The notes under the pieces: model-generated
What the model was told of the DNA's origin: nothing
The model's input: the letters and a program-made list of their open reading frames with translations, nothing else
The model's database searches: none
In this document: positions 1-19,384 of the stretch, piece by piece
Numbering within the stretch: the stretch's first letter is position 1
How the letters are laid out: every line of letters starts with the position of its first letter
From: a virus
Virus record (IMG/VR): IMGVR_UViG_3300017709_000049
Coordinates: 1-20,716 of that record
Strand: one strand, 5' to 3'
DNA length: 20,716 nucleotides
Program-made: the position numbers and the translations under genes

Positions 1-188
1 ATTTTAAATTTAGGTGGACGACCTTTACCCTCGTGGAGAGCAAGTTCTTTTTTACCTAATTTTTTCTTTAAATTATATATCAGTGATTTTTTACCGACAT
101 ATTTCTTTCCAGTAGGGATATGGGTCGTTTGATAAATGTAACCATATGTGCCCTCCGGAAAGTGTTCGTAACTTTCTGGTATTATCAT
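1..188 (-). CDS. GIY-YIG family nuclease, partial (N-terminus only)
   Basis: An open frame starts with ATG at 188 and runs off the left edge, giving 62 residues without a stop. It carries a recognisable GIY-YIG core: G-Y-I-Y at residues 16-19, an 11-residue step, then Y-V-G at 30-32 followed by K-K, with a very basic stretch at about 41-60. GIY-YIG proteins cut DNA one strand at a time and in phages are often free-standing homing or repair-type endonucleases. The start overlaps the stop of the giant fibre gene by ATGA, so it is probably co-transcribed and translationally coupled. The catalytic arginine that I-TevI has eight residues after YIG is not evident; lysines lie nearby. Codons include CCG, GAG, GGC, ACG and CTC and look more GC-rich than the fibre gene, which hints at separate origin. 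The family call is fairly sure; homing activity is inference because the C-terminal domain is missing. Confidence 0.72.
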   Translation of the reverse strand, partial: MIIPESYEHFPEGTYGYIYQTTHIPTGKKYVGKKSLIYNLKKKLGKKELALHEGKGRPPKFK

Positions 189-6100: not shown

Positions 6101-6358
6101 TTCAAAACCCCCTAATAAATTACCATAATTTCTATTTCCTTTATTGTAAAATAAGTGGTCTATTTGTCTATATCTTTTTGAATTAAACAAATCATTACCC
6201 CCCGCTGAGTAAGTATCTAAACTTTCTGAGCTATATTTAGTATTATCAAAACTTACACCAAATGAAGATGTTGTTGCACTAGTTACATTATAGTGTTTGT
6301 GGGCTTCAAATGCTATTATACCCCTATCAGATGATTTTAATTTTTTATATGTGAACAT
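185..6358 (-). CDS. Giant tail fibre / adhesin with laminin-G-like domain (2057 aa)
   Basis: By far the largest gene, probably a host-recognition fibre or other peripheral virion protein. Residues about 215-408 form a laminin-G/concanavalin-A-like lectin domain: a Y-I-E-I-P strand, then F-T-I-S-F-W-Y-N-P, a late L-Y-I-G-N strand and the closing I-M-I-F-S-K-A-L segment typical of Laminin_G_3 proteins. The rest is rich in Ser, Thr, Asn and Gly, predicted beta-rich, with few cysteines and no signal peptide or membrane segment. Two degenerate repeats centred on H-V-N-S-G lie near residues 1570 and 1810. The last 80 or so residues match the C-termini of the two genes just upstream, and the N-terminus (M-F-T-Y-K-K-L-K-S-S-D) resembles theirs. 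The start is fixed by a TAATG overlap with the 391-residue gene. A role in host binding is inference from the lectin fold, the size and the position after the baseplate genes. Confidence 0.8.
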   Translation of the reverse strand: MFTYKKLKSSDRGIIAFEAHKHYNVTSATTSSFGVSFDNTKYSSESLDTYSAGGNDLFNSKRYRQIDHLFYNKGNRNYGNLLGGFEYTEQEKRLYDIANILGISQDNTGNGIQKGTFNLNNTYKDDSKGNIYNGSTDTLLNGLFVDYPLDTDRVFYLAPTKGFKKVDLTRETITGRPIVNHSSTHNAVEYDDSLFNNSVKYVSCSFKYMDGDLDGYTGVNLDQGYIEIPHNNTFNYNDEDFTISFWYNPKDLSGVKYLISKGFTKTDASSPTTPPLSDNSGSFGPQDIDAGNSYPFAIYADGSNLYLERSDENSTCRVQAPLFGTGLVNYIFVKDGNTLRSYANGITVTSNDVVDTTTNCGNQGNLYIGNKGGSRSTEAFGIEPAGGEISQIMIFSKALSQNEINKVKSSITGTPVVGNIFYENGIATITKPNIAANTLISSETATVTLTLAQTPNNVDPEFISATIPGPVYSGSATFFTSSVILDIDDKTSYTNVLNANRNATTQVVEGSSDVVFLAPRPAIDFGGFLINPIVRTEFLFNFINLNPLTDSVPATRFAEKLEGVSFFTPDNEDKPYSASLEVIRLGAGFETNDEYSEGFWTAILPPVFTLTSSFSLAQTRESTPTWMSIIPTDYQPYFTASVYNASLGTNVPNLVENTINFRPFQNRWTSNNNVASLNPDTSLSHGFNQFKGSPVDNFLDQGGGPFTAELQSDLFTYLDDEGDEITSTSGAQPQSFPLSPAISLEAKAYNNNSNKALLNLLVCTGSRGNITAFEGATLKHESGSGGNPAGNLSNEDLFLDSDNGRYASTAFLGGGGPDIFSVPFAYPGGINGGNIYPALTASTQQVDGNSTLDSRVEPGVIEPDTIPTADGRYMGFNFHKKRLFGEYENNVLYGSITRLQLQCNLRFKVYEPDSDPTKYGDQNIQFKFAYYHKSTNTHYDIFDEDGDKLETDPSLLSQGVGFNAKSITKTINPLAMDLKVATDMFEGLEGTPADFTAFEDEEDQIRVLVRSIADDSEKESGVIIGSGTGISYNGFKITDQNPEFGPSDYLGFSSDMITPIKSGTPKRFTINGISSKISDINGAVDYHGGTVDNVHMRTSLNKTIGKAEHETNLGIRVDLYEMDLNPDDLYDMQMPRVLEGTSGFYNRAHLLTSSLFEAGTTVNNTTSDISTLDFIGAYSPSNLSRYNNWIEDPHIFPRDLDFEHFLTASEERNMFLAYRIGVVDFNNAYPDENNLLDFRLAPTNGAEGFAVGCIHLAEIKPTNTQSFYYPDMDGFPLNNNQLLSPESATGSVLTSIIGNIVDGGTTAGDIITTADLNDKFIGELPTQITSMSIKEVSGQSYFLGYINNYTIAGDETRNLLASNIILDNEFAILPDREFEGADHTFEITGSFTQGSHTKASASFEISQSGLYEARLLDLGLYHNRNNVYANPIYGLGPEVHENNKVKVEFYYKEPGLAPGASGVLLENVTKTVEFPNGVNSTARPFNSISNIGYQGFMAEGATMSIQLTLLDEDDVETTSFPHQGIISRNFQNVRLTSSREVTRVDGGSCTGTDPFTEQQIEGSAIRFRSPHVNSGISEFPFDGPGAIERITASIANYDGPNKIILKDDFFITMSGFEANPFIGQGGAVKTEIPFNYAQNRLYHFNFNGGTLDSWYALVNSEGGIGPGDTEMDSILSGIPGFNGGGLGVRVIDSNGIIKAQKYSDSDPVNYWPNSFSTTFGNTGTGKIQIFSSGAISSLFSDGNVTASYIGEGPISNEDNIPWAYQLGNIDISITESKGSDTTNESFARLPNAPSGEPLTISITSSHVNSGDQGFFTMGKSLQNILEIIPQGDSTFKIRIGNELFITASSPATASIDQIEGFDYVGESTANAVTINSISPAGTAIGDNIVGSTFTFTDQAGATTLYTIQQVIGGVGADEAGSPGSLVLSSQTVPATGQDDQILITPSFEDITINYLTPADNSDFNLQFKNTHLIFENEFHCTVEENEFNFTLNPTARKNKDITKGDLANFATSSIFKPYVTTIGLYNEDNELLVIGKLAQPIKISEEIDTTFVVRYDT
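188..436 (-). repeat. Shared C-terminal module, copy in giant fibre
   Basis: Encodes about residues 1975-2057 of the fibre. Landmarks are N-E-F-N-F-T-L-N-P, then T-T-I-G-L-Y-N-E-D-N-E-L-L, then K-L-A-Q-P-I and a terminal beta-strand. It is the most divergent of the three copies; the others end the two genes immediately upstream. Parts remain similar as DNA, for example the stretch coding for G-L-Y-N near 265-300. Confidence 0.85.
811..955 (-). repeat. Internal fibre repeat, distal copy
   Basis: Encodes fibre residues about 1802-1850: S-S-H-V-N-S-G, a hydrophobic stretch, then E-L-F-I-T-A-S-S. It shares 16 identical bases (930-945) with the copy at 1635-1650. The two are in the same frame, 705 bases (235 codons) apart. 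Outside the H-V-N-S-G core the match is weak but follows the same order of features. Confidence 0.55.
1514..1660 (-). repeat. Internal fibre repeat, proximal copy
   Basis: Encodes fibre residues about 1567-1615: S-P-H-V-N-S-G, a spacer, then D-D-F-F-I-T-M-S-G. The 16-base core at 1635-1650 is identical to 930-945. It is probably a duplicated beta-structural unit in the distal shaft, and each copy may be part of a longer unit too diverged to see by eye. Confidence 0.55.
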
Positions 6359-7533
6359 TAAAAGGTAAGTTTTACTTTAAATAAAAGACTTTTTGTAAAA
6401 TCTTTAGCTATGGGTTTACTTAATTTAGCAACTGCTAACAGTTCATTACGGTCATTGTACAATCCTATTGTTGTAATATAAACTCTGGGGTTATCCACCA
6501 TAGAATTAATCCTTACATTGTTGTTTTTATCCTGAAAAGTTTTACTATTAGAATAGTTAAAATCTTTATTAGGGATATCAACATTATAATAAACAACATT
6601 TAATTCTTCTTCGGCTTTTAGCTGTATTCCTCCCCCAAATTTTATACCATTATTAAATCGTCCGATATTAGCAATATGGGAAAGAAGACCCCCAGTTAAA
6701 TTAGGGGTAGTAGTTGTTTCCCCATTGAGAAATGAAAATTCAGTAATAATTGAGTCGGTTGGAAAAGCACTTGAGTCTATTAAGGCATCTGTGTTAAATA
6801 TTAATATACCTGCATCTGGGTAGAATAAACCATATGATCCCACTGGGCTGCTTCCTAATGGATTATGGGCTTTTTGGGATTGGGCAGCTATCCTACTATC
6901 AAAAGATACTCCATTTGAACCAGATACTATATTATATTCTCTTCCTATAAGGGAAGTTCTAAAAATGGGATTAGTTAATGAATCATCAGTTAGTGTTATA
7001 GAATCAGAGCTATTTTCGACATCTTTAAAAGATATTTGCAAAGATCCTGTTGCTAATGACTGTTTATAATTACGTCGATTAAAGTTTATAATAAAAATAC
7101 TATCAGGTACATGCCCACTAAAACTAAAATCTTTGGTTTCATCTCCATATACTAAAGAACGATATTGGCTATATAAAGATTTAGCCGGGCTATCATAATC
7201 AAATATTCCTTCTTCAAAAGATGCTGAAGCATTATCTATATTATAAGGTGCACTACCTAATCCTTTGCGGTGAGCGTAAATAACCTGAAATGCAGGATCT
7301 GGATCTATATAGTCAGGGTAAAAATCTCCTGTAGATTCATCGAATGAATATCCAATAAGATTAGTAGCTAAAGAAGTTATATCACCACTTTGAATTACAC
7401 TGGTTCCTATAAATCGGGGATCCGATAAATCACTAACAGGGATAGAGGGTAGTCCACTATTCCAAATATTAGATTTTACAAGTTCTTTAGTAATAAAAAC
7501 ATTATCAGAAGTAAATCTATTGTATACAGACAT
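6358..7533 (-). CDS. Virion protein, paralogue B of tandem pair (391 aa)
   Basis: A homologue of the 337-residue protein encoded just upstream. Shared landmarks in order are an N-terminal Y-x-R-F-x-S-D-[ND], Y-[AG]-H-R-[KE]-G-x-G-S near 90, Y-S-Q-Y-R-S-L-[VI]-Y-G-D-E-T near 125, a Y-K-Q-[SA]-L-x-[AT]-G-S-L segment, N-I-V-S-G-S-N-G-V and G-L-F-Y-P-D-A-G-I. The final 75 residues are the module also found in the giant fibre. Proteins of this type occur in large marine phages as structural proteins; the exact role is unknown to me. It has no membrane segment or signal peptide. It is about 54 residues longer than its paralogue, mostly through insertions before Y-S-Q-Y-R and in the middle. Its stop overlaps the fibre start as TAATG; 18 bases separate it from the upstream gene. 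A fibre-attachment or short-fibre role is inference. Confidence 0.78.
   Translation of the reverse strand: MSVYNRFTSDNVFITKELVKSNIWNSGLPSIPVSDLSDPRFIGTSVIQSGDITSLATNLIGYSFDESTGDFYPDYIDPDPAFQVIYAHRKGLGSAPYNIDNASASFEEGIFDYDSPAKSLYSQYRSLVYGDETKDFSFSGHVPDSIFIINFNRRNYKQSLATGSLQISFKDVENSSDSITLTDDSLTNPIFRTSLIGREYNIVSGSNGVSFDSRIAAQSQKAHNPLGSSPVGSYGLFYPDAGILIFNTDALIDSSAFPTDSIITEFSFLNGETTTTPNLTGGLLSHIANIGRFNNGIKFGGGIQLKAEEELNVVYYNVDIPNKDFNYSNSKTFQDKNNNVRINSMVDNPRVYITTIGLYNDRNELLAVAKLSKPIAKDFTKSLLFKVKLTF
6361..6588 (-). repeat. Shared C-terminal module, copy in 391-aa protein
   Basis: Encodes about residues 316-391, with N-K-D-F-N-Y near the start, then I-T-T-I-G-L-Y-N-D, N-E-L-L-A-V-A-K-L-S-K-P-I and a closing basic F-K-V-K-L strand. 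It is very close to the copy at 7555-7790. Confidence 0.9.
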
Positions 7534-7551: not shown

Positions 7552-8565
7552 TTAGTAGTCAAGCTTAACTTTTATTAATGCTTCTTTAGTAAAATCTTTA
7601 ACTACAGGTTGACTTAATTTAGCAACCGCTAGTAATTCATTAGCATCGTTATATAAACCAACAGTTGTTATGTAGGCAACTGGATTATCTACCATAGATG
7701 TTTTATTAATATTACCATTAGCATCTATAAATGACGGATTAGTTGTATAATTAAATTCTTTGTTTTTAGCTCTTACAAAATAAAATTGAGACGATATTTT
7801 TTCTTCAGTATCTAATATAAATGATGCTCCATTATCTAAGGCCGTTTCAAATAAACCCTGAATGAGATTTAAACCAGATAAAGTATTAGCTGCTCTATTA
7901 GTTACTAAAGTAGCATGAGTAATACTATTACCGTCCCCCAAAGCATCTGGGTTAAATATTGCTATACCTGCATCTGGATAGAATAAACCAAAACTACCAC
8001 TGTCTGTTTGTGATAAATTAGAACCTGACATTACCCCATTTGAACCTGATACTATATTAAATTGTCTACCTATATTAGTTAATATAGCACTACCTGAACG
8101 TGAAACTGAGTCATCTGTGTATACTTTATCTGCGCCTAATGTTATGTTTAGGGATCCTGCTCTTAATGCTTGCTTATATCTAGAACGAGCAATATTTACT
8201 ACGTAAATATCTTGTGGTTCATATCCATTAAAAGTAAAATTACGAGTTTCATCTCCATATATTAACGAACGGTATTGTGAATACACTGATCTAGTTGAAC
8301 TAAATCCAGGATCATTAGCATTATAAGGCTGTGAGCCACTTCCTTCCCTGTGACCATAACTAACAGTAAAGTTAACATCGGTTCCCCCATCAACGTGGGC
8401 ATATTGGACTCTAAAGGCATTAGAACCCGTTGGGCTTCCTGCGGCTCCTCCCCCTACGGGAAAACCACCTTGGATAGCATTAGTATTACCTGTCCAAGTT
8501 GAACTAAAAACTTTTTCAGTTGTGATTACAATGTCGTCGGATGAAAATCGTGTATATGTTGCCAT
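7552..8565 (-). CDS. Virion protein, paralogue A of tandem pair (337 aa)
   Basis: The shorter member of the tandem pair, with the same order of landmarks as the 391-residue protein: Y-T-R-F-S-S-D-D at the N-terminus, Y-G-H-R-E-G-S-G-S, Y-S-Q-Y-R-S-L-I-Y-G-D-E-T, Y-K-Q-A-L-R-A-G-S-L, N-I-V-S-G-S-N-G-V and G-L-F-Y-P-D-A-G-I. It ends with the C-terminal module shared with the giant fibre. It is a soluble, mixed-composition protein with no signal peptide, most likely a structural component of the tail tip or fibre attachment. Ten bases separate it from the 229-residue gene upstream. The region before its ATG is A/T-rich (TTAATATAAC) with no Shine-Dalgarno. The family resemblance is sure; the function is not known to me. 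Confidence 0.78.
   Translation of the reverse strand: MATYTRFSSDDIVITTEKVFSSTWTGNTNAIQGGFPVGGGAAGSPTGSNAFRVQYAHVDGGTDVNFTVSYGHREGSGSQPYNANDPGFSSTRSVYSQYRSLIYGDETRNFTFNGYEPQDIYVVNIARSRYKQALRAGSLNITLGADKVYTDDSVSRSGSAILTNIGRQFNIVSGSNGVMSGSNLSQTDSGSFGLFYPDAGIAIFNPDALGDGNSITHATLVTNRAANTLSGLNLIQGLFETALDNGASFILDTEEKISSQFYFVRAKNKEFNYTTNPSFIDANGNINKTSMVDNPVAYITTVGLYNDANELLAVAKLSQPVVKDFTKEALIKVKLDY
7555..7790 (-). repeat. Shared C-terminal module, copy in 337-aa protein
   Basis: Encodes about residues 259-337: N-K-E-F-N-Y-T-T-N-P-S-F, then Y-I-T-T-V-G-L-Y-N-D-A-N-E-L-L-A-V-A-K-L, S-Q-P-V and a final I-K-V-K-L strand. It looks like the least elaborated copy. Confidence 0.9.
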
Positions 8566-8575
8566 GTTATATTAA

Positions 8576-9265
8576 TTATCTTACTACACCGTCTACATCT
8601 TGTGTAGCTGTTACGGCGAGTACTTCTTTTGAAATTTCAACGGGAATAGTTGCTCTAGCACCGCTGTCTCTACCTTCAATTACTAAGCTAGTTAATAAAG
8701 TAGTTGCAGTACCAAATAATGTTTGAGCATTTATTGCAGTTAAGCTTAAGGATTGACCAATTGCGGTTTCAGCAATTGCTGAATTAGAATACGGACGTAC
8801 TCTAGATGATTTACCTGCTTGACTTGTTGCTGTAAATCTAGATAATAATCTTCTGTCTGCAATAGTAAATATATATCCTCCTGGTTCTTTAAGGTTTGAT
8901 TGACCACTAAAATTAAGTGTAGTTGGGTTAACTACTGTGGTTGAACCTAAAGAAAGGGTAATTTTTGCTGTATTAGCCGTTACAACAGGCATAGCTGAAG
9001 TACCTCTAGGTAGAGTTACTAGTTTGCTTTTTAAAATCGCCTGATCATCGGGAATAGCTTCCAACATAGGAAGATTTTCAATTGCTTCACCTGCAAATGC
9101 CGAACCAGCTGAATGATTTTCATTATATAAGGTATAATCTATTTCATCGTCGCCTAAGGCAAATTGTGTGATTTTAAAAGAACCATCTTGTCTAGCAAGA
9201 GCTTCGCGGCCTTTTTTAGTAAGAACGGCGTCTACTATAATGTTTGTATTATCTAAATATCCCAT
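8576..9265 (-). CDS. Conserved phage structural protein (229 aa)
   Basis: The N-terminus is the conserved part: G-Y-L-D-N, then I-I-V-D-A-V-L-T-K-K-G-R-E-A-L-A, then G-S-F-K-I-T-Q-F-A-L-G-D-D-E-I-D-Y (residues 2-45). I recognise this pattern from structural proteins of large marine phages, where it precedes fibre-like genes; it has no established mechanism that I know of. The remainder is Ala/Thr/Ser-rich and beta-like (V-T-A-N-T-A-K-I-T-L, then a Ser/Ala-rich C-terminal half). It is the first gene after the longest gap in the window and lies 24 bases downstream of a candidate promoter motif, so it probably opens the fibre transcription unit with the 337-, 391- and 2057-residue genes. No Shine-Dalgarno; the ATG follows AAAACAAAATTA. 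Confidence 0.72.
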   Translation of the reverse strand: MGYLDNTNIIVDAVLTKKGREALARQDGSFKITQFALGDDEIDYTLYNENHSAGSAFAGEAIENLPMLEAIPDDQAILKSKLVTLPRGTSAMPVVTANTAKITLSLGSTTVVNPTTLNFSGQSNLKEPGGYIFTIADRRLLSRFTATSQAGKSSRVRPYSNSAIAETAIGQSLSLTAINAQTLFGTATTLLTSLVIEGRDSGARATIPVEISKEVLAVTATQDVDGVVR

Positions 9266-9280
9266 TAATTTTGTTTTTTT

Positions 9281-9289
9281 ATAAATATA
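9281..9289 (-). promoter_or_regulatory. Candidate phage promoter motif TATATTTAT (fibre unit)
   Basis: Read on the minus strand, TATATTTAT starts exactly 24 bases before the ATG of the 229-residue gene, followed by A-rich sequence. The same nine bases sit at the same distance before the 120-residue gene at 19360. This is the longest intergenic gap in the window (41 bases). The motif fits the TAnnTTT part of the Bacteroidota -7 element, but no matching TTG -33 box is visible. Here it lies within an AT-only 7-base inverted repeat with a 2-base loop. It could instead be part of an A-rich translation-start leader. Confidence 0.45.
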
Positions 9290-9306
9290 AAAGTTTTATG
9301 AAAATG

Positions 9307-10881
9307 TTATTTTAATTTTTTTCTAGAGTCATTTCTTACAGGTATAGTATCAACTCCTAATGGAATACCTGCTTTAGCAAGAAAATATATTAAGTTATCC
9401 TTTATATAGGGGTGTAAATTTTCGGGTATAACTACAAATCCTTTATCACCAACCCCATTTGGCAAATCTATATTTTTATTCATTTTTATAAGAACACTAG
9501 GTTTTGAATTATCATTTCTTGAAAACATTACAGATCCGGCATCTGCAAAGACAGAAGGCTTTTTAGATAAAAAGAGATCAGATGATATATAGTCCTGGGC
9601 TAAAGGATTTTTAAGAGTAATTGATATACCTGCTACGCTACTCATTTCACTTCCGGGAAATCTACTACGATCAATAACCCCAAATGTTGTGCTACCATTA
9701 TCAGCTATAGCACTACTAGGTATTATTTCTGCTGTAGACATTAGGGTAAAATCTTTTAATATAGGGACTGCTTGGTTGGGTGTATTTCCGGAAAAACTAC
9801 TAGATTCTTCTACTATAATAGCAGGTTGGGGAATATTAATAGGATATGTTGAAGTTGGCGTTCCTTGTGAAGTAGGATCTCCATCTGTAGTAGAACCAGT
9901 CATAGCTATGTTATCTATGGATCCACTTTTGATCATAGTAGCAAAATATTTATCTAATCCTCTATAATTTGGATTAGAGATCATGCTGCCTTCTCCTATA
10001 GTAAAAAATGTAAGTTCATTTGGAGCACCAGGACTACTACCTCCTCCTACTCCCCCTATTGAAGAAGGAATAGTTGGGTTAGCAGCGGGAGTTGGTGGGA
10101 AAATATTATTAAAAAAACCAAAATTTAACCCAATTTCGCTAATGTCATTATTAAGCAAAGAAGAAGGGTCAAAAGAACCCCAAATATCTCTCATTACATC
10201 AGATTTAAAAGCAAATATTTGAAATGGATAATTAAATTTGGTAAATTTTTTAGCGTTTCTGTTAAAAATTAATTCGTTGCTTGAAGAAACATGGGTTATA
10301 TTTGAACGATGTGTACCAAATTGATCACCATTTATACCAGAAGGAATTATGTGTGCTACCTTAACTAATTGTCCTTCGTTCCAAAATATGTTATACCTAT
10401 CCCTTAAATTATTCCTAACGGAAAAATCATTTAATACAAGTTTACAACTAGTACCTATATCAAAATCTTCCGTAAATGTGCGATAATATGCTTTTCTAGA
10501 ATCGAAGTTATCTTCAGTATCTTCTAATGATATTTTATCAAATGTATCGTCGTCATTTATAGTAAGGTAACTATTTAAACCTATATATGTAAAATTAGGA
10601 AAATGAGTTAAACTATTATCTTCAGTACCCTCATCAGTCATCCCAACTACAAAGTTACCTAAATAAATATTTCTAGAGTATTTTTGTGCTGCTGCTGTTT
10701 TACCACTAGTTATATCATTGGGTGATATCTTATTAAGAGTAATGGTTTGAGTTTTAACTCCTTCATATCTTGAACTTTTCCAAGCATCTGCACTATAATT
10801 AGAGTCATTTATTTCTACAGAATACTCATCACCCCCAACAGTAGTTGGATTAAATGTAGGTTTATTTGGTACGTTAGGCAT
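9307..10881 (-). CDS. Virion-associated protein of unknown function (524 aa)
   Basis: Not assigned to a family. The first 45 residues hold a segment W-K-S-S-R-Y-E-G-V-K that I associate with phage structural proteins. Residues about 60-230 are mixed and probably folded. Around 255-290 there is a Pro/Gly-rich linker (P-P-T-P-A-A-N-P, then G-G-V-G-G-G), and a Ser/Thr/Pro-rich stretch at about 330-370 suggests a second flexible region. The C-terminus (P-E-N-L-H-P-Y-I-K-D-N-L-I-Y-F-L-A-K-A-G) looks helical and ends basic. No signal peptide or membrane helix. It is the last gene of the baseplate block, six bases after the 1080-residue gene and before the fibre unit, so a role at the junction of baseplate and fibres is plausible but inferred. 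Confidence 0.65.
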   Translation of the reverse strand: MPNVPNKPTFNPTTVGGDEYSVEINDSNYSADAWKSSRYEGVKTQTITLNKISPNDITSGKTAAAQKYSRNIYLGNFVVGMTDEGTEDNSLTHFPNFTYIGLNSYLTINDDDTFDKISLEDTEDNFDSRKAYYRTFTEDFDIGTSCKLVLNDFSVRNNLRDRYNIFWNEGQLVKVAHIIPSGINGDQFGTHRSNITHVSSSNELIFNRNAKKFTKFNYPFQIFAFKSDVMRDIWGSFDPSSLLNNDISEIGLNFGFFNNIFPPTPAANPTIPSSIGGVGGGSSPGAPNELTFFTIGEGSMISNPNYRGLDKYFATMIKSGSIDNIAMTGSTTDGDPTSQGTPTSTYPINIPQPAIIVEESSSFSGNTPNQAVPILKDFTLMSTAEIIPSSAIADNGSTTFGVIDRSRFPGSEMSSVAGISITLKNPLAQDYISSDLFLSKKPSVFADAGSVMFSRNDNSKPSVLIKMNKNIDLPNGVGDKGFVVIPENLHPYIKDNLIYFLAKAGIPLGVDTIPVRNDSRKKLK

Positions 10882-10887
10882 ATTTTA

Positions 10888-13800
10888 TTAATTAAATGCT
10901 TTTCTAAAGTATTTTTTACTTAAAGCCCCATAAACAAGATTATTTTCAAATGACCCCTGGCTACCACTTAAAACTTCTTCAACATCAATTGTGGCTTCAT
11001 GTAATATATATTCACTACTCATTGTAGGAAAGGTTTCTGGTATCTGGAAATCTGGAAATGATACATTTGAAAAATCTGTATCTGTATAGTTGAATTTATT
11101 TCTTTCTAAATAATGGGGTTCTATTACTAATCCGGTTTTTAAATTTGCTTTAGCAGGGGCAAATTCTTCTATTATTTTAAATATAGTATGGTCAAAATAT
11201 TGTATAGTTTTTAAATAATCAAAGAAATTATATTTACTTTTAACTTTTTGGGTATATAAGTCTCTAGCTGATTTTAAATCAGGATAATCATTACTTGTTA
11301 AATGGCGGGGGTCTCCTATATAATCATCTAATCTGAACCCTCCTAAAGTATATATTATATCTTCATTAATTTCAAAAGTAGGTGAAAAGAATATTCCTAA
11401 ATTCGAAAGATCTTGGGGTTGACGATCTAAGGTAGAAGTTTCTGCCCTCACTTGTGGGGAAAGAATTTTATATCCTGGTACACTTCCACTATCGTATCTA
11501 ACTTTTTCGGAAACCATAGAAGAACCTACAGTATCAGGGGTAGAAATATGGTGATTATATGTAACTTCTTTATATTTGGTACCCTGAATCTGAGCTGTTA
11601 GTAATGTATTACTACCGTTGTTAGAATAATCAGAAAAATTATAGGGAGTTGAAGAAATACTTTCTGTTGCTATATTAGCACCTAACGGGTTATAATAATA
11701 TAATTCGTTATCGAAATATGAACTAGTAGTATTACCTGCAAATATGTTAGGATCTTTAGTGTGGAATTCTTTAGTTTGTGCGTTTAAAGTAGTAGTAAAT
11801 CCTTTAACATTATGGAGAATAAAATTAGATTTTTTATCTGCTAATGTAGTAGTAGATCTTCCTATAGACCAATTATAATTTGAAATGGTAGTTCTAGAGG
11901 ATGACGGTGCACTTTTAAAGGCTGGGTTAGTATTAAATGATGTTTCAAAAAATTCATTATCTACATACATGCCTGCGGTTATATCTAAACCACTTCCACC
12001 AGATTCCCTTAAGAAAAAGGTAATTGGGTTACCACTATATACGGGGAAGAAGGAACTTTCTTGGGTTATACTAGTACCATCATTAAATACTAATCTACCG
12101 GATTGTTCATATATAGAACTTGTTTGGATAGCAATAAATTCAGCACTATTAGAAGTTGAATCACCAAATATTACATTAAATTCATCTGTTTTATAGGGGT
12201 ATACCGTAAGAACAATAGTATCTACATTAGCAGGAAAGCCAAAACTAACTTGGGTTAATGATGAACCTGATATATTTAAGCCTCTAGATAATTTAGGGTA
12301 GTTAAATGTTCTAAATCCAGATTTATCAGATGAGGGCCCACCATATTCTTTTACATGGAGTATACTTTCAGGAATACCATAACAAGCTAATAAAGCTTTA
12401 ATACCACGTTCAGTACCTTTAGTCTTTAAAAGATAAGGAGCATTATGGTATAAACGTTTCCAAACTTCTTTTGTAATGTCACTTTTAGTAGAAACGGTAG
12501 CCGTTGGAGTACTTAAAACTAATACATTTCCGGTTTCTGTAATTATTACTTGGCCTGCTTCTGTAAGGATGGCTTCTACGCCTGTTAATAAATCATCTAA
12601 ATTATCTTCTCCAGTTCCATCGAATCCTATTAAATAATCAAATAGGTTAGTATTTTCAAATTGATCAAAAGCTGGAATACCTCTTTCTTTTAAAGCATTA
12701 AATACAAGATCTTTAGAAATACCCTCAGTTAAACTATTGTGAGCTATATTTTTATCTGTAATATTTTCAATATAAAGCCAAATATTATCAAAATATTGGC
12801 CTATCATATCAGTAAATGTTATAAATTGCTCATTCTCATTATTATCAATGATATATTGAGGGAGTGCATTTCTTAAAATATAAGGATTTTCATCATCAAA
12901 ATTAGAAGCACTTAATAATTGACCACCATAATAATCGCTTCCATCATTTGCAGACCCAAACCATGATAGTGCTTCAGAAGAAGTAGATGGGGCTATTATA
13001 TAGGGGACTTCATTATTTGATTTAGGCCAAGCATAATCATTTTTATCAAAATATAAAAATCTTTCATAATTATCAAAATTACTAACTACTTTTTTAATTA
13101 AAGATTGGTTATTTTCTTTTTCAATTTTTACTGCTTGAGAAGACTGGTTTAAAGAATCTAAGTATATACTTTTAGAAGCATATAGTTCAATTAATTCTAA
13201 TTTATATTTAAAATTTTCTAATCTTTCTTTAGCTGAACCAAAATGTATAAATTTTTCAAACGTGTATCCCGTATCTGTATTAGGATTGTCATATTCTACT
13301 GATACTGGAACACTAGCAGATAGGGCATTTAGTACATTTTGTAAGGAAGAGGTTTGTTCATATGATAATATATCATTAAAAGCTTTATAATTAGTTGGAA
13401 TACTTGAATTTAGACGTGTATCTATTCTTAAATTAGGACCTTTTAATTCAGTAGAAGAAATTGTAATTTCAGATGTCCCTAAGCTAATATTATAACTTAT
13501 AGGATTTGTAAGTTCTTCAATTATTCTAAATTGAGATTTTTCACTAAAAGTATTAGGTAAGGGTTCATAAAGTTTAATTAAAAAACTATTATTTTGGTCC
13601 TGTTCAGCTATAAAATTAACCCCAGTTAATACGGTATCATCGCCTAAATTTAGCGCAAAATCCTTGAAATACGCAATTCCCTCTTCAGTATCACCGAGTT
13701 CGGCGATAAATTGATTTGTCGCGGATATAAGCGGGGAAAGATTTTCATCGTCTATAATTTTAACTCTTAATTCAGTTCTACTAGGTGAAATAGTATTAAT

Positions 13801-14130
13801 ATAGAATAAATTTTCAAGAGTATTTGCAATTTTTTTTCTATGAAAGTTAACCCTTAATTCATATTCTCCTGTAGAATAGCCTAAATCTCTTAATGCTTTA
13901 TCAGGGTTAAAAGTAATTTCATTAAAAAATCCTTCATTATCATCTACATCAGGAATTTCATATTCTTCAAAATTATAAACAGTATCTAGTAAATTGCCAT
14001 TAAGGTCATAAATGTGCAATTCAACACAGTCCTCTGGTCTACCAAACTTGCGGACTAATTTTTTTTCGCTAAGAAGATTTTTATCTTCTGGGCGAATTTG
14101 TTCTAATATTTTTTTAGATTTTATAGCCAT
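10888..14130 (-). CDS. Large baseplate wedge protein, candidate gp7 equivalent (1080 aa)
   Basis: Probably a large wedge or baseplate subunit. Residues about 430-600 resemble the tail protein I (P2 gpI) family: a helical F-D-N-I-W-L-Y-I-E-N-I segment, L-F-D-Y-L-I-G-F, then V-W-K-R-L-Y-H-N-A-P-Y-L-L and K-G-T-E-R-G-I-K-A-L-L-A-C-Y-G-I-P, the characteristic turn into a Gly-Thr-Arg-Gly helix. Residues about 625-795 read as a concanavalin-A/laminin-G-like beta domain. Near 960-1005 is a conserved F-D-H-T-I-F-K-I-I-E-E-F-A-P-A segment followed by P-H-Y-L-E-R-N-K, which I recall from large-phage structural proteins. Length is close to T4 gp7 (1032 residues), and the gene lies downstream of the gp25- and gp6-like genes, as expected for a wedge component. 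The start is set by TAATG with the 188-residue gene. The gp7 equivalence is inference from size, place and the gpI-like segment. Confidence 0.68.
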   Translation of the reverse strand: MAIKSKKILEQIRPEDKNLLSEKKLVRKFGRPEDCVELHIYDLNGNLLDTVYNFEEYEIPDVDDNEGFFNEITFNPDKALRDLGYSTGEYELRVNFHRKKIANTLENLFYINTISPSRTELRVKIIDDENLSPLISATNQFIAELGDTEEGIAYFKDFALNLGDDTVLTGVNFIAEQDQNNSFLIKLYEPLPNTFSEKSQFRIIEELTNPISYNISLGTSEITISSTELKGPNLRIDTRLNSSIPTNYKAFNDILSYEQTSSLQNVLNALSASVPVSVEYDNPNTDTGYTFEKFIHFGSAKERLENFKYKLELIELYASKSIYLDSLNQSSQAVKIEKENNQSLIKKVVSNFDNYERFLYFDKNDYAWPKSNNEVPYIIAPSTSSEALSWFGSANDGSDYYGGQLLSASNFDDENPYILRNALPQYIIDNNENEQFITFTDMIGQYFDNIWLYIENITDKNIAHNSLTEGISKDLVFNALKERGIPAFDQFENTNLFDYLIGFDGTGEDNLDDLLTGVEAILTEAGQVIITETGNVLVLSTPTATVSTKSDITKEVWKRLYHNAPYLLKTKGTERGIKALLACYGIPESILHVKEYGGPSSDKSGFRTFNYPKLSRGLNISGSSLTQVSFGFPANVDTIVLTVYPYKTDEFNVIFGDSTSNSAEFIAIQTSSIYEQSGRLVFNDGTSITQESSFFPVYSGNPITFFLRESGGSGLDITAGMYVDNEFFETSFNTNPAFKSAPSSSRTTISNYNWSIGRSTTTLADKKSNFILHNVKGFTTTLNAQTKEFHTKDPNIFAGNTTSSYFDNELYYYNPLGANIATESISSTPYNFSDYSNNGSNTLLTAQIQGTKYKEVTYNHHISTPDTVGSSMVSEKVRYDSGSVPGYKILSPQVRAETSTLDRQPQDLSNLGIFFSPTFEINEDIIYTLGGFRLDDYIGDPRHLTSNDYPDLKSARDLYTQKVKSKYNFFDYLKTIQYFDHTIFKIIEEFAPAKANLKTGLVIEPHYLERNKFNYTDTDFSNVSFPDFQIPETFPTMSSEYILHEATIDVEEVLSGSQGSFENNLVYGALSKKYFRKAFN

Positions 14131-14696
14131 TATTCGTCAGATTCAATTTCATCAAGGACATCTTCAATTTTTTCTCGGGCACGTCTAATTTGATTATTAG
14201 TACCACTGATTGTTGTGGTATATATTACATCTCTTATAATAGTGGCATATAATTCATCCTCATTTAATTCGCTAGATTGGTCTATTAATTCTTTTACTAG
14301 CTCTAACTTAAATACTTTAGTTATAATTTTACCTGCTCTAGCTTTTCGGCTATTATTATTTATATCGTCCTCAGAAATGTTTAATTTTTCAAATATTTCA
14401 GTTTTAGATACTATTTTAGAATTTTTAATTTCGTCAGAATTTTCATCAGGTAAAATATCAACTAATAAATTACCTACAGCAATTTGTTCAAAGTTATCAA
14501 GAATATCTTCTACTTGATCTTTTCGCCTCCTAACACGATTAATTTCATTTTTAAATTCTTGTATTTCTACATTAATAGCATCAATCTCTGTTTGTTGTTC
14601 GGCAGTTAGTGCAATAGAAGTAGCTCCTGAATTAAGACCATTATTAGAACCTCTAGTGCTTTTAGAATCTGTATTTTTACCTGAATATCTAGCCAT
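14130..14696 (-). CDS. Coiled-coil baseplate-region protein, unknown (188 aa)
   Basis: A highly charged helical protein. An N-terminal disordered Ser/Asn/Gly tail (residues 1-30) precedes a strong heptad-like helix at 32-75 containing I-N-V-E-I-Q-E-F-K-N-E-I-N-R-V-R-R-R-K. Two more helical regions follow, at 95-150 and at 163-188, which ends very acidic. No enzyme motif, signal peptide or membrane segment. It overlaps its neighbours on both sides by TAATG (one shared base), so expression is tied to the 268- and 1080-residue proteins and it probably assembles with one of them. It may be a small wedge linker or an assembly chaperone; nothing in the sequence decides between these. Confidence 0.65.
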   Translation of the reverse strand: MARYSGKNTDSKSTRGSNNGLNSGATSIALTAEQQTEIDAINVEIQEFKNEINRVRRRKDQVEDILDNFEQIAVGNLLVDILPDENSDEIKNSKIVSKTEIFEKLNISEDDINNNSRKARAGKIITKVFKLELVKELIDQSSELNEDELYATIIRDVIYTTTISGTNNQIRRAREKIEDVLDEIESDE

Positions 14697-15502
14697 TATG
14701 CACTTGTTATTTGTTGTTTTCGTTTTCTAAGATCTTCTAATTTTTCTTGTAAAGTTCTAAGGTAATTTTCCTTTTCTATAAAATCTTTTTCTAATTCACT
14801 TCTGAATAAATCAAAATCACCATTATAATTATCCGGATTTAATGAAGTGTTAGAAGGATCTAAAGTTAATCTTAATTCAGATATTTCTGCTTCTGCCTCT
14901 GTTGGGTTCCAGGGATCATTAAAATTATTTGGAGTTAATGGTGGTCCAGAAGGAATATCATCTATTATAATATCTGGAAAAGCTGGAACTTTATATTTAT
15001 CAGCTTCACCATTATTATTTTTATATTCAAGTAGTCTTAAGAATGAATCTCTAATTTCGGGATCATTAAAACTAAAGATCCTTTTATATGCCTGATCCAT
15101 TAAAAATATTTGACCCCCCGATAATGAAGTATCAAAACGACGAATTAATGTTCCATTTCTAAATCGTGGGTGTTCTTTTACAGTTTCTACTTCGGCCGTT
15201 GGTTGAGAAGCGTCTAATAATTGTTTTTGAAGTTCTTCTATTGTAGACTGTAAATTTTCTATTTCATTGTCTTTTACATCATTACCAGGTGTAATGAGTT
15301 GGTTACTTTGTTGAACTAAAGATGAATGGCTAAATTCCCCGTTCTCTGGGATTTCTAAAAATAATTCGTTATATAGATTAAAAAAATCTTCTATAGTAAA
15401 GGTTTCCCTTGCACTAAATAGTTCAGAAAAATCTGTGTCGATTACTTCTTTATACTTATTGCTACTGTATATGTTTTTTCTTATAGAAATATTTTCTTTC
15501 AT
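14696..15502 (-). CDS. Helical baseplate-region protein with surface-type motif (268 aa)
   Basis: Three parts are visible. Residues 1-60 are mixed, with I-E-D-F-F-N-L-Y-N-E-L-F. Residues 75-100 form a short coiled coil. At about 112-155 a compact motif reads F-R-N-G-T-L-I-R-R, a gap, I-F-L-M-D-Q-A-Y-K-R-I-F-S-F; it resembles the G-x-L-[IV]-R..V-Y-L-I..G-x-K-R-x-I units in some bacterial surface and wall-associated proteins. A Pro/Asn-rich linker (about 165-200) leads to a C-terminal coiled coil (225-268) ending in L-R-K-R-K. It sits between the DNRLRE-like and 188-residue genes, overlapping both by TAATG. A baseplate component is the simplest reading, but the family is not known to me. Confidence 0.62.
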   Translation of the reverse strand: MKENISIRKNIYSSNKYKEVIDTDFSELFSARETFTIEDFFNLYNELFLEIPENGEFSHSSLVQQSNQLITPGNDVKDNEIENLQSTIEELQKQLLDASQPTAEVETVKEHPRFRNGTLIRRFDTSLSGGQIFLMDQAYKRIFSFNDPEIRDSFLRLLEYKNNNGEADKYKVPAFPDIIIDDIPSGPPLTPNNFNDPWNPTEAEAEISELRLTLDPSNTSLNPDNYNGDFDLFRSELEKDFIEKENYLRTLQEKLEDLRKRKQQITSA

Positions 15503-16656
15503 TATCTAGTGACTTTAAAATAACAATCGTCATCATATATATTTATACCATCATTGTTATCATGTCTAATTAATAAACGATAATACCTTTCGGGTTGCAA
15601 ACCTTGCATGTTTAATTTAAAATACATACCATCAGTATCTGCACTTAATTTTGTAAATTCTGTATCAAAAGGTATGATAACTTCTTTTGAAGTATAATCT
15701 TCAATACTGTAATATGATGTTGGGTTTAAATAATTTACTTTAAGAAAATCTGAAGAAGTTGTAAATGTTCTGTTAGGATATTGTTCCCTAACATTTAATC
15801 TTAAAATAGGCTCTTCTGATTGTTTGTATTCAGGTTTTAAATTATTAAAATTTAATTGAATCTTTCCACTATTTAATATATCATTACTACTAGTAACAGC
15901 ATCAGCATAGTCCGAATCATCCCATTTTATTGCTAATGTGGGTGAAAATATAGTATGAGTATCTACAGAAAAATATTTAATAGTTCCTTGATTAGAACCC
16001 GTTAAGGTAGTATCGTGTTCTCTTTTTATAATAAATCCATTATTAGGTATACCATCGGGGAGGGGGGCATGTAAAAACATACTTTTAGATACTTTTTGTA
16101 TTTGGTCAGTAATATTAAAATTTAAATCAAAGTTATTTACAATAGAAATTGATTGTGTAGATTCAAATCCTGATCCATAATACCAAGTTCCTCCCCCAAG
16201 TGTACTATCTATGTAACTTGCTGTGTTTGCTCCTGTAGAAATGTCAGACCAACTAGTTTTTATTGTCCCGTTGTCCTTATATAACCAAGAAGCACCATCA
16301 CTTACTACACCACTAAAATATGGGTGATCAATGTATCTTTGGCTACCATTATTCCATTCATCTACTAAAGGATATAATTCTATGTTTTGAGAAATGGGTA
16401 AGTTTTGAGTAAAATCCGTAGCATATAATTTTAAAGAAGCACTAAACTCGGTGGTATTTATTTTTTCAGAAAGGACATGTTTTATTTCTGAGTCTTTAAA
16501 TTTTAAAAGGATTCTAGAAGGGTAATAGTTACTATCATTATTTCCTTTTTCGGATAGTAATGATAGTGTTTCCATTTTACCCGTATTTAGATCTTTTCTA
16601 AGAGGGTGAGAATATATAGTTGTGTCCTTTTCAGGAAATAAAAAATGATATGCCAT
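15502..16656 (-). CDS. Structural protein with DNRLRE/CBM96-like features (384 aa)
   Basis: The layout follows DNRLRE/CBM96-type beta proteins. There is an opening D-T-T-I-Y-S segment, S-R-I-L-L-K-F near 47, A-S-L-K-L-Y-A-T-D, V-D-E-W in the middle, a G-G-G-T-W-Y-Y element near 150, then N-I-T-D-Q-I before N-G-F-I-I-K-R-E and a late P-T-L-A-I-K-W-D-D strand near 243. In bacteria such domains bind polysaccharide or decorate secreted enzymes. The remaining C-terminal 130 residues form a second beta-rich region ending in Y-Y-R-L-L-I-R-H-D-N. It lies two bases after the gp6-like gene. Position between gp6 and the putative gp7 suggests a wedge-attached protein, occupying the place where other T4-like phages carry further wedge subunits. 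The fold assignment rests on motif order and is moderately confident; glycan binding is inference. Confidence 0.66.
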   Translation of the reverse strand: MAYHFLFPEKDTTIYSHPLRKDLNTGKMETLSLLSEKGNNDSNYYPSRILLKFKDSEIKHVLSEKINTTEFSASLKLYATDFTQNLPISQNIELYPLVDEWNNGSQRYIDHPYFSGVVSDGASWLYKDNGTIKTSWSDISTGANTASYIDSTLGGGTWYYGSGFESTQSISIVNNFDLNFNITDQIQKVSKSMFLHAPLPDGIPNNGFIIKREHDTTLTGSNQGTIKYFSVDTHTIFSPTLAIKWDDSDYADAVTSSNDILNSGKIQLNFNNLKPEYKQSEEPILRLNVREQYPNRTFTTSSDFLKVNYLNPTSYYSIEDYTSKEVIIPFDTEFTKLSADTDGMYFKLNMQGLQPERYYRLLIRHDNNDGINIYDDDCYFKVTR

Positions 16657-16658
16657 GG

Positions 16659-18581
16659 TTAATATTTAATTATTCTACCTTTTACGTCTATATTAGGATA
16701 TTTTAATTCAAAAATGCTAGTATCCATAGAAGGGTATAAAACATTATTTATAGTTGCTGAATCAAAATCATAAGAATATTGAGAATATCCTAATGCTATT
16801 CCAGATTTATTAACTAATTTTACGTGTTCTACATTTTGAACATTTTTTACTGCTCCTATTACATTATATACTTCATTTATAATAATAGGTTGGTTAATTT
16901 GCCAGTTATCTACACTAAAATAATTTTTTAAAGCTTGAATACAATTTAATATAACTTCATTATTATTAGCTTCCTTAAAGGAAACTATATCAAATTCAAC
17001 ACCAAAATTAATAACAAATGCATCTTTAATATTAATAGCATCCGTTAACATTCTATATTCCTCTAAATAAGAAGATAAATTAGCTCTAGTAGCACTATTA
17101 AGTTGAGTAAGGTTTTTATTACCATCATATGCTAAAGTATATAAATTTAAAGCATTAGGATTTGATATTCTAGCACTACTATCTATACTAATTTGATCGT
17201 CTTTTATAATATATGCTTTAGCTATTTTACCAAATTTAGCAGGCATAGATAAAGTACGAATAATATAATCTTCTTTTGAAACTGTTCTAAGTTGGGCTGA
17301 TGATTGAGCTATACTATTTTGTTTTATATCTTCAAGTGTATCTCCAGGTCCTCCTCCAGTAGCGGGGAATGGGTTATTGACTGATAAAGATTCTTTTACA
17401 GTGGTAAAAATACCTTCACTGCTAATACTATTATTCTTAGCTATATTAACGGCAGATAATTTATTAATTACACTTGATTCCACATTTGATTCTATTCCTC
17501 CACCTACTAAATAATTAACACTAATAGTAGTATTAGAAGGCACCTCACCATATGCTTTTGAAGCTAAGAAATTTGATGGGTCAAATGATTTATCTAAATT
17601 AGATCTACTATCTTTAATTCCTATTCCTATATTTTCTGGTGTAGGTAATACTTCTGAATCATTGCCTTCACTAATACCTGCACCAAATTGTAATTGTAGT
17701 ATATCGTTTGAAGTAAATCTTGTTGTAAATCTTTTAGGTACTTTTTTAAGTCTTAAAAGATAAGGAGTATCATTAGAATATTGTTGTAAATTAGGGTTAT
17801 TAGCAGCTACATTTGCTACTTCCTCAAATATAGTTTCTTGGGCTAAATAAGGAACTTCATAATAAGTATTATTATCAGCATCTACTACGTTTTCTATTCC
17901 TATAATTTTTGAATCAGGAATTTCTAATGTAAGATATTTTTCAGGTTCACCAATAGTAAAAGAAGTTGTTTTTACTTCAGCGCTAATAACATTACCTTGT
18001 TTTTTTATTAAATAATATAAAGGAGTGGGATTAGTACCCTCCTGTACAGATAGGGGGTTTCCTTCTTCTGAATATATAGATACTTCTGTAGGGTCTAATG
18101 AGTTACTAACTTGGAAATTAACATCTTCAGTAAGAGTAAATCTTGTAGGTGAGGCTTCAGATGTAGTAAATACAGAATTTCTTTTTACAGTAGGAGCATA
18201 ATTCCAATCTGGACCTGTTCCCGATCCATTAGCGGGTAATGTTATAAATAAATCTAAACTAGTAGTTGATGGATTAGAAATAACAGGTTTATAACCTAAA
18301 TTATATGCTAGGGCTAAAAGATTGGTCTTTTCCCTAGCGGATTCTATAAAGGTTTCTTGAAGTTGTGTATCGGTGTAATAAGAAAGTATATCTCCTACAT
18401 AGGCTGCTAATTCTAAAAATACCATGCCAGGATTGCTTTCTGAAAAGTCATTGAAATTATCTGGGAAATAATTTTTAGTAAAATTAATTAAATCTTGTTT
18501 TAATAGATTATAATTTCTATTTAAGTACTTAATATCTTTTTTATTAGTACCAGATGTATTATTTATTTTAGAATAGGCCAT
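16659..18581 (-). CDS. Baseplate wedge protein, gp6 / baseplate J family (640 aa)
   Basis: This protein forms the inner ring of the baseplate wedge, dimerising around the hub and holding sheath initiation until contraction. Length is close to T4 gp6 (660 residues). The N-terminus has the family pattern: a helical start with L-L-K-Q-D-L-I-N-F near 26, then D-F-S-E-S-N-P-G-M-V-F-L-E-L-A-A-Y-V-G-D near 45-64 and the Y-Y-T-D-T-Q-L-Q-E-T-F helix near 68-80. The baseplate-J core follows at about 414-455, where S-A-Q-L-R-T-V-S-K-E-D-Y leads into a K-A-Y-I-I strand. The C-terminal third has the beta/alpha repeat expected for the clamp that contacts gp25 and gp7. It starts three bases after the gp25-like stop, the same gp25-gp6 adjacency seen in other contractile-tail phages. 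No Shine-Dalgarno. The family call is firm. Confidence 0.9.
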   Translation of the reverse strand: MAYSKINNTSGTNKKDIKYLNRNYNLLKQDLINFTKNYFPDNFNDFSESNPGMVFLELAAYVGDILSYYTDTQLQETFIESAREKTNLLALAYNLGYKPVISNPSTTSLDLFITLPANGSGTGPDWNYAPTVKRNSVFTTSEASPTRFTLTEDVNFQVSNSLDPTEVSIYSEEGNPLSVQEGTNPTPLYYLIKKQGNVISAEVKTTSFTIGEPEKYLTLEIPDSKIIGIENVVDADNNTYYEVPYLAQETIFEEVANVAANNPNLQQYSNDTPYLLRLKKVPKRFTTRFTSNDILQLQFGAGISEGNDSEVLPTPENIGIGIKDSRSNLDKSFDPSNFLASKAYGEVPSNTTISVNYLVGGGIESNVESSVINKLSAVNIAKNNSISSEGIFTTVKESLSVNNPFPATGGGPGDTLEDIKQNSIAQSSAQLRTVSKEDYIIRTLSMPAKFGKIAKAYIIKDDQISIDSSARISNPNALNLYTLAYDGNKNLTQLNSATRANLSSYLEEYRMLTDAINIKDAFVINFGVEFDIVSFKEANNNEVILNCIQALKNYFSVDNWQINQPIIINEVYNVIGAVKNVQNVEHVKLVNKSGIALGYSQYSYDFDSATINNVLYPSMDTSIFELKYPNIDVKGRIIKY

Positions 18582-18584
18582 TTA

Positions 18585-18998
18585 TTATAAGGTTATTGAA
18601 ATCTCACTTGTATCATTATCTAATAAAATTGTATAACCTATTTTTATATTTAATAATTTATCCTCAGGGGTAACTTGGAGATTATTTAATTCTATTTGTG
18701 GGATATGGAATTGTATGTTTTGATCTATTCGAGCTTTAAGAGTAGATATTCTTTCACTAGATTCAACATTTTGGTCAAAAAGTATTTCTCTTAAACCTAC
18801 ACCATAAGAGGGTTCATGGTAACGTTCACCAGGAGATGTTAAAAGAAGATTAATAAGATTAGATTTTATTTGGTCCTTTGTTGTATAATTAAATTGAAAT
18901 ACTCCTTTTTTATTAAAAGGTACCCTAACCCCAATAGCTTTACGCTTATCAAGATCAAGAGGATCAATTCTATATCCTATTTTTTTCCTTATAGCCAT
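18585..18998 (-). CDS. Baseplate wedge protein, gp25 / GPW family (137 aa)
   Basis: gp25 is a small lysozyme-like-fold subunit that joins wedge to sheath and is nearly universal in contractile tails. Length matches the family (T4 gp25 is 132 residues). The key family signature is at about 50-75: N-L-L-L-T-S-P-G-E-R-Y-H-E-P-S-Y-G-V-G-L followed by R-E-I-L-F-D, in which the G-E-R..P-x-Y-G-x-x-L core is diagnostic. Helix I-S-T-L-K-A-R-I follows, then the C-terminal strands. The start is fixed by TAATG with the 120-residue gene. It lies directly ahead of the gp6-like gene, a standard pair. The family call is firm. Confidence 0.93.
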   Translation of the reverse strand: MAIRKKIGYRIDPLDLDKRKAIGVRVPFNKKGVFQFNYTTKDQIKSNLINLLLTSPGERYHEPSYGVGLREILFDQNVESSERISTLKARIDQNIQFHIPQIELNNLQVTPEDKLLNIKIGYTILLDNDTSEISITL

Positions 18999-19360
18999 TA
19001 TGGTCTAAAATCTTTTTTCTTAGAAATTGCATTCATTATGGGGCCCCAATCTTTATTTACAAATTGATTTACAGGGTCATTAGATGCAAATGTTTCTTCT
19101 GATGTGGGTGTTATAGCTGTTTCAGATAGAAGTGAATTAAGAGTATCATTGCCCGTATTAAAGTTAGGTGGGGGCATTTGGGATCTTAATTTAGCTCTAA
19201 AATCTTCGGCTTCTTGAGTATTACTTTTAGTTTCTACTACACGCTGTTGTGGTTGGCTGACTAATTCTTCTTTTAGTAATGCTATTTCACGCCTTAAGGC
19301 ATGATCTATTTCTTCCCGCACAACTTTTCTAATAATTTTTTCGAATGCACTTAATTTCAT
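18998..19360 (-). CDS. Small coiled-coil protein ahead of gp25 (120 aa)
   Basis: Residues 1-36 form an amphipathic, strongly charged helix (F-E-K-I-I-R-K-V-V-R-E-E-I, then L-R-R-E-I-A-L-L-K-E-E-L). A low-complexity Gln/Ser/Thr/Pro linker follows, then a C-terminal part with V-N-K-D-W-G-P-I-M-N-A-I-S-K-K near 100-115. Similar short proteins sit ahead of gp25 in large marine phages; no function is established to my knowledge. It follows a 24-base gap and a candidate promoter motif, and its stop overlaps the gp25 start as TAATG, so it probably opens the baseplate transcription unit. An assembly or scaffolding role is possible but only inferred. Confidence 0.7.
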   Translation of the reverse strand: MKLSAFEKIIRKVVREEIDHALRREIALLKEELVSQPQQRVVETKSNTQEAEDFRAKLRSQMPPPNFNTGNDTLNSLLSETAITPTSEETFASNDPVNQFVNKDWGPIMNAISKKKDFRP

Positions 19361-19375
19361 TAATATTAGTTTTTA

Positions 19376-19384
19376 ATAAATATA
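19376..19384 (-). promoter_or_regulatory. Candidate phage promoter motif TATATTTAT (baseplate unit)
   Basis: On the minus strand TATATTTAT begins 24 bases before the ATG of the 120-residue gene, identical in sequence and spacing to the motif at 9281-9289. It occupies the second-longest gap, directly after the stop of the 295-residue gene. Downstream is again A-rich (TAAAAACTAATATTA). No clear -35 or -33 box is visible. Repetition at two unrelated gene starts is the main support. Confidence 0.45.

Follow-up and report, generated by a model that had tools for sequence, protein, structure and literature searches.

A conserved AT-rich box upstream of virion gene units in T4-like phages related to Flavobacterium phage vB_FspM_immuto: probable late promoters and a candidate gp55-like sigma factor

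Comparative analysis of the window (the whole stretch of DNA that was analysed, 20.7 kb, which is the entire virus record) and of related phage genomes suggests that the two copies of the 9-mer TATATTTAT preceding its gene units serve a T4-like phage as late promoters. A divergent sigma factor resembling gp55, acting on the host RNA polymerase, probably reads them. The proposed promoters have the following features: (i) the element would be a single AT-rich box with the consensus (T)ATATTTATA and the core TATTTATA, occupying the -10 position and lacking an upstream -33/-35 element, (ii) transcription, predicted to occur late, would start a few bases past the box and produce a short A-rich leader followed by the ATG, (iii) the transcripts would run through a baseplate unit (from 19360) and a fibre unit (from 9265), and (iv) the box would most likely be read by the host RNA polymerase together with a phage-encoded gp55-like sigma of about 233 aa. 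The conservation of the box, its strand and position, its association with structural modules and its distinctness from host-type promoters were computed and are described below.

The genes of both units are located on the minus strand, as are the two elements. Past the element at 19376..19384, the baseplate-side unit starts with a gene for a 120-aa protein without Pfam or PHROG matches (18998..19360), and includes genes for a gp25-like baseplate wedge protein (18585..18998; PHROG 261/43), a gp6-like baseplate wedge protein (16659..18581; PHROG 219/10646; 42.5% identity to the baseplate wedge protein of vB_FspM_immuto, hereafter immuto), and a 1080-aa structural-module protein (10888..14130) that matches the product of immuto positions 85576-89373; the end gene of the unit is an open reading frame for a 524-aa protein (9307..10881). 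Past the element at 9281..9289, the fibre-side unit starts with a gene for a conserved 229-aa protein (8576..9265; orthologue immuto35A_163), and includes genes for a 337-aa protein (7552..8565) and a 391-aa protein (6358..7533), both without Pfam matches, and for a 2057-aa protein with a Laminin_G_3/concanavalin-like domain (185..6358; PF13385, E 9.6e-14) that is likely a fibre or adhesin. A fragment of a GIY-YIG SegE-like endonuclease is found at the window end (3-188).

Comparison of the window with public phages by megablast revealed no match. Matches of its structural module, namely the gp25- and gp6-like genes and the 1080-aa protein, were found in immuto (160 kb); the same baseplate genes and the 1080-aa protein also have matches in an uncultured phage of 484 kb and in Mel-JY01 (190 kb; listed host Microcystis elabens). 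The host of the window phage likely belongs to Flavobacteriia, and the source of the window is probably a T4-like phage infecting a marine flavobacterium.

Both minus-strand copies of TATATTTAT start exactly 24 nt upstream of an ATG (at 9265 and 19360, respectively) and lie in the only two window gaps longer than 20 bases (9266-9306 and 19361-19384), as the preliminary description of this DNA had stated. The fibre-side copy is part of the extended core TATATTTATA at 9280-9289, and the baseplate-side copy runs on as TATATTTATT. The same description had seen no third exact copy; in fact, a third and a fourth are present on the plus strand (14992..15000 and 15538..15546), both antisense inside genes and judged to be chance occurrences. 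The intragenic 8-of-9 matches that it mentioned do exist, but their positions are 8865-8873 and 10663-10671. Sense copies of TATATTTAT occupy two of the four window gaps of at least 12 bases; when these gaps were shuffled 200 times, the average was 0.04, and the number never exceeded 1. The total number of occurrences with at most one mismatch is not raised in the window (38 versus 55.4 in dinucleotide shuffles), which is what one would expect if the box words were a chance product of AT-rich DNA. Since the raw count is not over-represented, the case for TATATTTAT rests on position and conservation.

To assess conservation, the upstream regions were compared for relatives of the 229-aa gene and of gp25. 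Relatives of the 229-aa gene were found in 53 stretches of viral contigs representing 52 distinct loci. The exact 9-mer is present upstream of this gene in 38 of 41 distinct relatives, and the core ATATTTATA in all 41. The distance to the ATG ranges from 21 to 28 nt and is 26 nt in most cases. Thus, the spacing of exactly 24 bases proposed initially holds in the window but is not fixed among the relatives. The A directly 3' of the 9-mer is invariant across the 38 exact copies, and their flanks are mostly variable, except for A-rich leader stretches and a small number of A residues immediately 5' of the 9-mer. Before the 120-aa gene, 15 of the 17 loci with enough sequence have the exact 9-mer and the other two have the core only, so that the core is found in 17/17. 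In immuto, TATATTTATAA is located 29 nt upstream of the ATG of the 229-aa orthologue, and CTATTTATTA is found upstream of the 120-aa orthologue.

For the genome-wide analysis, we fetched the long relatives G001-G005, two cultured phages, and the contigs G020-G023 (124-169 kb), which were located via the sigma-like gene described below. Open reading frames were called mechanically by a simple rule, and the gaps between them were used as upstream regions. Gaps with the 9-mer are strongly biased to the sense strand: 17 sense and 0 antisense in G020 (shuffle mean 0.57), 22 and 2 in G021 (1.84), 14 and 0 in G022 (0.60), 16 and 1 in G023 (1.10), and 8 and 1 in immuto (0.89). With no motif preset, the top gap 8-mer is ATATTTAT in G020-G023, G003, G004 and Mel-JY01, and TATTTATA in immuto; in G001, ATATTTAT ranks first or second depending on the measure used. 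In all these genomes ATATTTAT/TATTTATA occupy ranks 1-2, with p-values from 1e-10 to 1e-51 in a binomial test that assumes independent sites, the related contigs being non-independent samples. The close relatives of the window are only distantly related to immuto, Mel-JY01 and the G020 group, whose sigma-like proteins are 40-56% identical to the G002 query. Across the related genomes, the motif is found in gaps and in the sense direction, its usual distance to the gene start is 20-45 nt, and few copies lie inside genes. Given this strong gap enrichment and the conservation in orthologous gaps, the chance explanation is already refuted by the comparative counts, and its probability is practically negligible. 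The most distant marine contig, G005, is dominated by a different word with TTG 23 nt upstream. A second promoter-like repeat of this contig, CTTATCTTTAC, has TTG at this distance in 8/8 cases, and the late box is weaker here. In G001, a repeated GAAAATTCGATCGTATATTAAAC immediately before ATGs is possibly a further promoter class.

The same script applied to 50 kb of T4 as a control yields ATAAATAT/TATAAATA. Three bacteroidete phages outside the group did not show the late box in the gap-word analysis: the result was a host-type box, ATATTTGT/TATTTGTG, for Flavobacterium phage FCL-2, and other words for phi38:1 and phi14:2. A search of the phage collection detected no homologue of the sigma-like gene in these three phages. 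LR756508, which encodes a sigma homologue (40% identity), served as an out-of-sample prediction, and the prediction failed: there is neither box enrichment in this genome nor a box before its 229-aa orthologue. Thus, the sigma-like gene and the box do not always travel together. The word CTATTTAA, observed at 85-185 kb of LR756508 with 3/4 copies in gaps, may be an altered box. With respect to upstream terminators, gaps with the box did not differ clearly from the others.

The position of the box close to gene starts could also reflect a signal in the mRNA leader that assists translation initiation, i.e. an AU-rich, unstructured start region used where no Shine-Dalgarno sequence is present. 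The fairly constant spacing before the 229-aa gene (21-28 nt) and the A-rich leaders, which are favoured in Flavobacterium translation (PMC6847099), would fit such a role. However, only some gene starts have the box, with an excess in structural modules, and it is the exact 8-9 bases that are conserved rather than composition. Moreover, Mel-JY01 retains the box ahead of Shine-Dalgarno-like GGAG leaders: its median distance to the ATG is 44 nt, and most copies are at 41-48 nt. A box that is kept but moved farther from the ATG argues for a promoter and not a translation signal, and we regard the translational role as quite improbable.

The promoter interpretation is consistent with the distribution of the box among functional modules. 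In immuto, the late box is found in 19/33 structural gaps versus 10/73 other gaps (p 8.5e-6). When modules were assigned via immuto orthologues, enrichment in structural modules was also observed in G020-G023 (p 1e-4 to 2e-3) and in Mel-JY01 (p 0.02), with some box sites located outside these modules. A second class of sites in immuto has the opposite distribution. It is characterized by TATATTTAGG, preceded in 24/24 cases by TTG at a distance of exactly 23 nt, is found in 0/33 structural gaps versus 25/73 others, and sits mostly before small genes at 22-77 kb. Immuto-like phages have, in addition to the box, genuine host-type promoters, which precede early-looking genes. In the same 22-77 kb region of immuto (MW353176), TTG-N20-TATATTTAGGTATC together with a repeated leader AATAATTAAAA precedes many small genes, as a repeated promoter cassette for early genes would.

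The two classes bear on whether the box simply represents a modified host -7 element (TAnnTTTG) recognized by the bacteroidete primary sigma, in which case the sites would be host-type promoters. The Bacteroidota promoter (-33 TTG / -7 TAnnTTTG) overlaps with the late box in TATATTTA, which agrees with TAnnTTTG at 5/6 specified positions and also occurs in the immuto host-type promoters. The primary sigma of Flavobacterium requires T-12, A-11, T-8, T-7, T-6 and G-5 (PMC6847099; PMC9723704), and the TA of TAnnTTTG is near-invariant in this genus (PMC6847099). In contrast, the late box keeps this TA in only 8/37, 17/36, 22/50, 14/32 and 16/39 sites (22-47%), has A in place of G-5, and lacks the -33 element: no TTG offset reaches 8% among 149 motif sites of G020-G023, whereas the immuto host-type promoters invariably have this TTG. 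In addition, the structural modules contain no host-type sites, Flavobacterium phage FCL-2 has TATTTGTG instead of the box, and the box persists in Mel-JY01, whose listed host is a cyanobacterium. We thus consider a host-type promoter unlikely. Taken at the level of sequence comparison, the conservation, the gap enrichment, the tie to structural modules and the absence from three outgroup phages support the initial suggestion that the motif may be a phage-specific late promoter.

A candidate for the cognate sigma factor is a conserved protein of about 233 aa, annotated as hypothetical in GenBank, for which a scan confirmed at least 597 relatives. In relatives of the window phage, its gene (immuto35A_152 in immuto) is located approximately 3.4-3.5 kb upstream of the gene for the 120-aa protein that opens the baseplate unit, i.e. 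just past the window end, and all fetched genomes with sequence at this place have it. From these relatives we infer that the window's own phage carries it as well. A weak Sigma70_r2 match falls on one gene in each of five records, and it is the same conserved gene wherever orthology could be checked; within the family, Sigma70_r2 was found in 14/40 members (best E 2.4e-5). The T4 gp55 profile phrog_234 has a single match in the whole immuto genome, on this gene (E 0.008), and phrog_1740 lands on this gene alone in three genomes. The initial hhalign comparison of the family alignment with T4 gp55 alone was not significant; after both sides had been widened, profile-profile comparison with seven gp55 sequences gave an alignment collinear over region 2 (E 0.0033, hhalign probability 9.8%). 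An HMM search of PDB with the family alignment yielded no sigma match.

Structural comparison gave a similar picture. Using AlphaFold models of the protein (pLDDT 76 and 81), Foldseek gave top PDB matches and named top viral matches that are, in their large majority, sigma factors; the best PDB probability was 0.99, and no PDB match reached E 0.001. Superposition of the model with the SigE N-terminal domain has a TM score of 0.64 and an rmsd of 2.6. Region 4 was not detected in the protein, PF08281 giving no match and PF04545 one weak match to another open reading frame. The T4 gp55 protein likewise has no region 4, and the missing region 4 agrees both with this resemblance and with a promoter lacking a -33 element. 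Individually weak matches from Pfam, PHROG, profile-profile comparison and Foldseek thus converge on, and lend weak support to, a sigma factor with similarity to region 2. That this protein reads the box is suggested by their co-occurrence and by analogy with T4.

A short single-element box would also suit a phage-encoded RNA polymerase, which could replace the host enzyme and its phage sigma at these sites. However, no Rpb2 domain was found in immuto, Mel-JY01 or four long contigs, while positive controls matched; a search for T7-type polymerases, run without a positive control, was also empty, and the sigma-like gene is present instead. We therefore see a phage polymerase as very improbable.

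In T4, the late promoter TATAAATA is recognized by sigma gp55 with the co-activator gp33 and the clamp gp45. Similarly to T4, the immuto-like group has a single AT-rich element without a -35 box before virion genes, both boxes fit TATWWATA, and the putative sigma, like gp55, is a small divergent protein without a detectable region 4, its own region 2 being tentative. Unlike T4, TATTTATA/ATATTTAT and not TATAAATA is the leading box of the group. The preliminary description rightly distinguished the motif from the T4 box; the better core, TATTTATA, corresponds to TATAAATA with the middle AA replaced by TT. Because reverse-complementing the T4 box also yields TATTTATA, antisense promoters were considered; this reading was rejected, since almost every gene is positioned downstream of the box in its sense orientation and since TATAAATA does not rank first among the sense words. 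The candidate sigma is only marginally similar to gp55 and has an extra C-terminal helical domain. The gp45 clamp domain PF02916 matched in T4 only; this test is insensitive, because Mel-JY01 has annotated clamp-loader genes. The comparison supports a box system that works like the T4 late system, and we do not assign it to the T4 type, given that its leading box differs from that of T4, that the similarity of the candidate sigma to gp55 is weak, and that the clamp test is insensitive. A tentative and rather doubtful extension is that this large group of T4-like bacteroidete phages, most of them uncultured, may have a late system of its own, with the box TATTTATA and a two-domain sigma (region 2 and the C-terminal helical domain) that may unite the roles divided between gp55 and gp33 in T4 and may function without a T4-type sliding clamp. 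The conservation of gp33 is limited (PMC2988020).

Another large T4-like phage for comparison is the cyanophage Ma-LMM01, which infects the freshwater cyanobacterium Microcystis; Mel-JY01 is likewise listed with a host of this genus. Ma-LMM01 has no gp55 and uses host-type motifs throughout (PMC5780444), whereas a phage-type box and a gene for a sigma-like protein are present in the immuto-like group. Mel-JY01 (PP395634) has the baseplate module and the sigma-like gene in common with the flavobacterial phages; it encodes a family B polymerase and clamp-loader genes, and immuto encodes a family A polymerase. At 18.6-37 kb, immuto has queuosine-type genes with DpdA, suggesting that its DNA may carry a 7-deazaguanine modification.

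Among the open-access papers covered, we found none that reports the box or the candidate sigma of about 233 aa. If true, the proposed system would provide a regulatory code for a common marine phage group, with at least 597 relatives of the sigma-like gene and few cultured members, and a name for a gene that is now hypothetical. The box would allow late operons to be marked in metagenomic contigs. It would also allow one to test in what way a T4-type late system is adapted to a host whose primary sigma recognizes unusual promoters, and whether a single protein may suffice as late sigma where T4 uses the gp55/gp33 pair; the latter point has been raised for T4 (PMC2988020).
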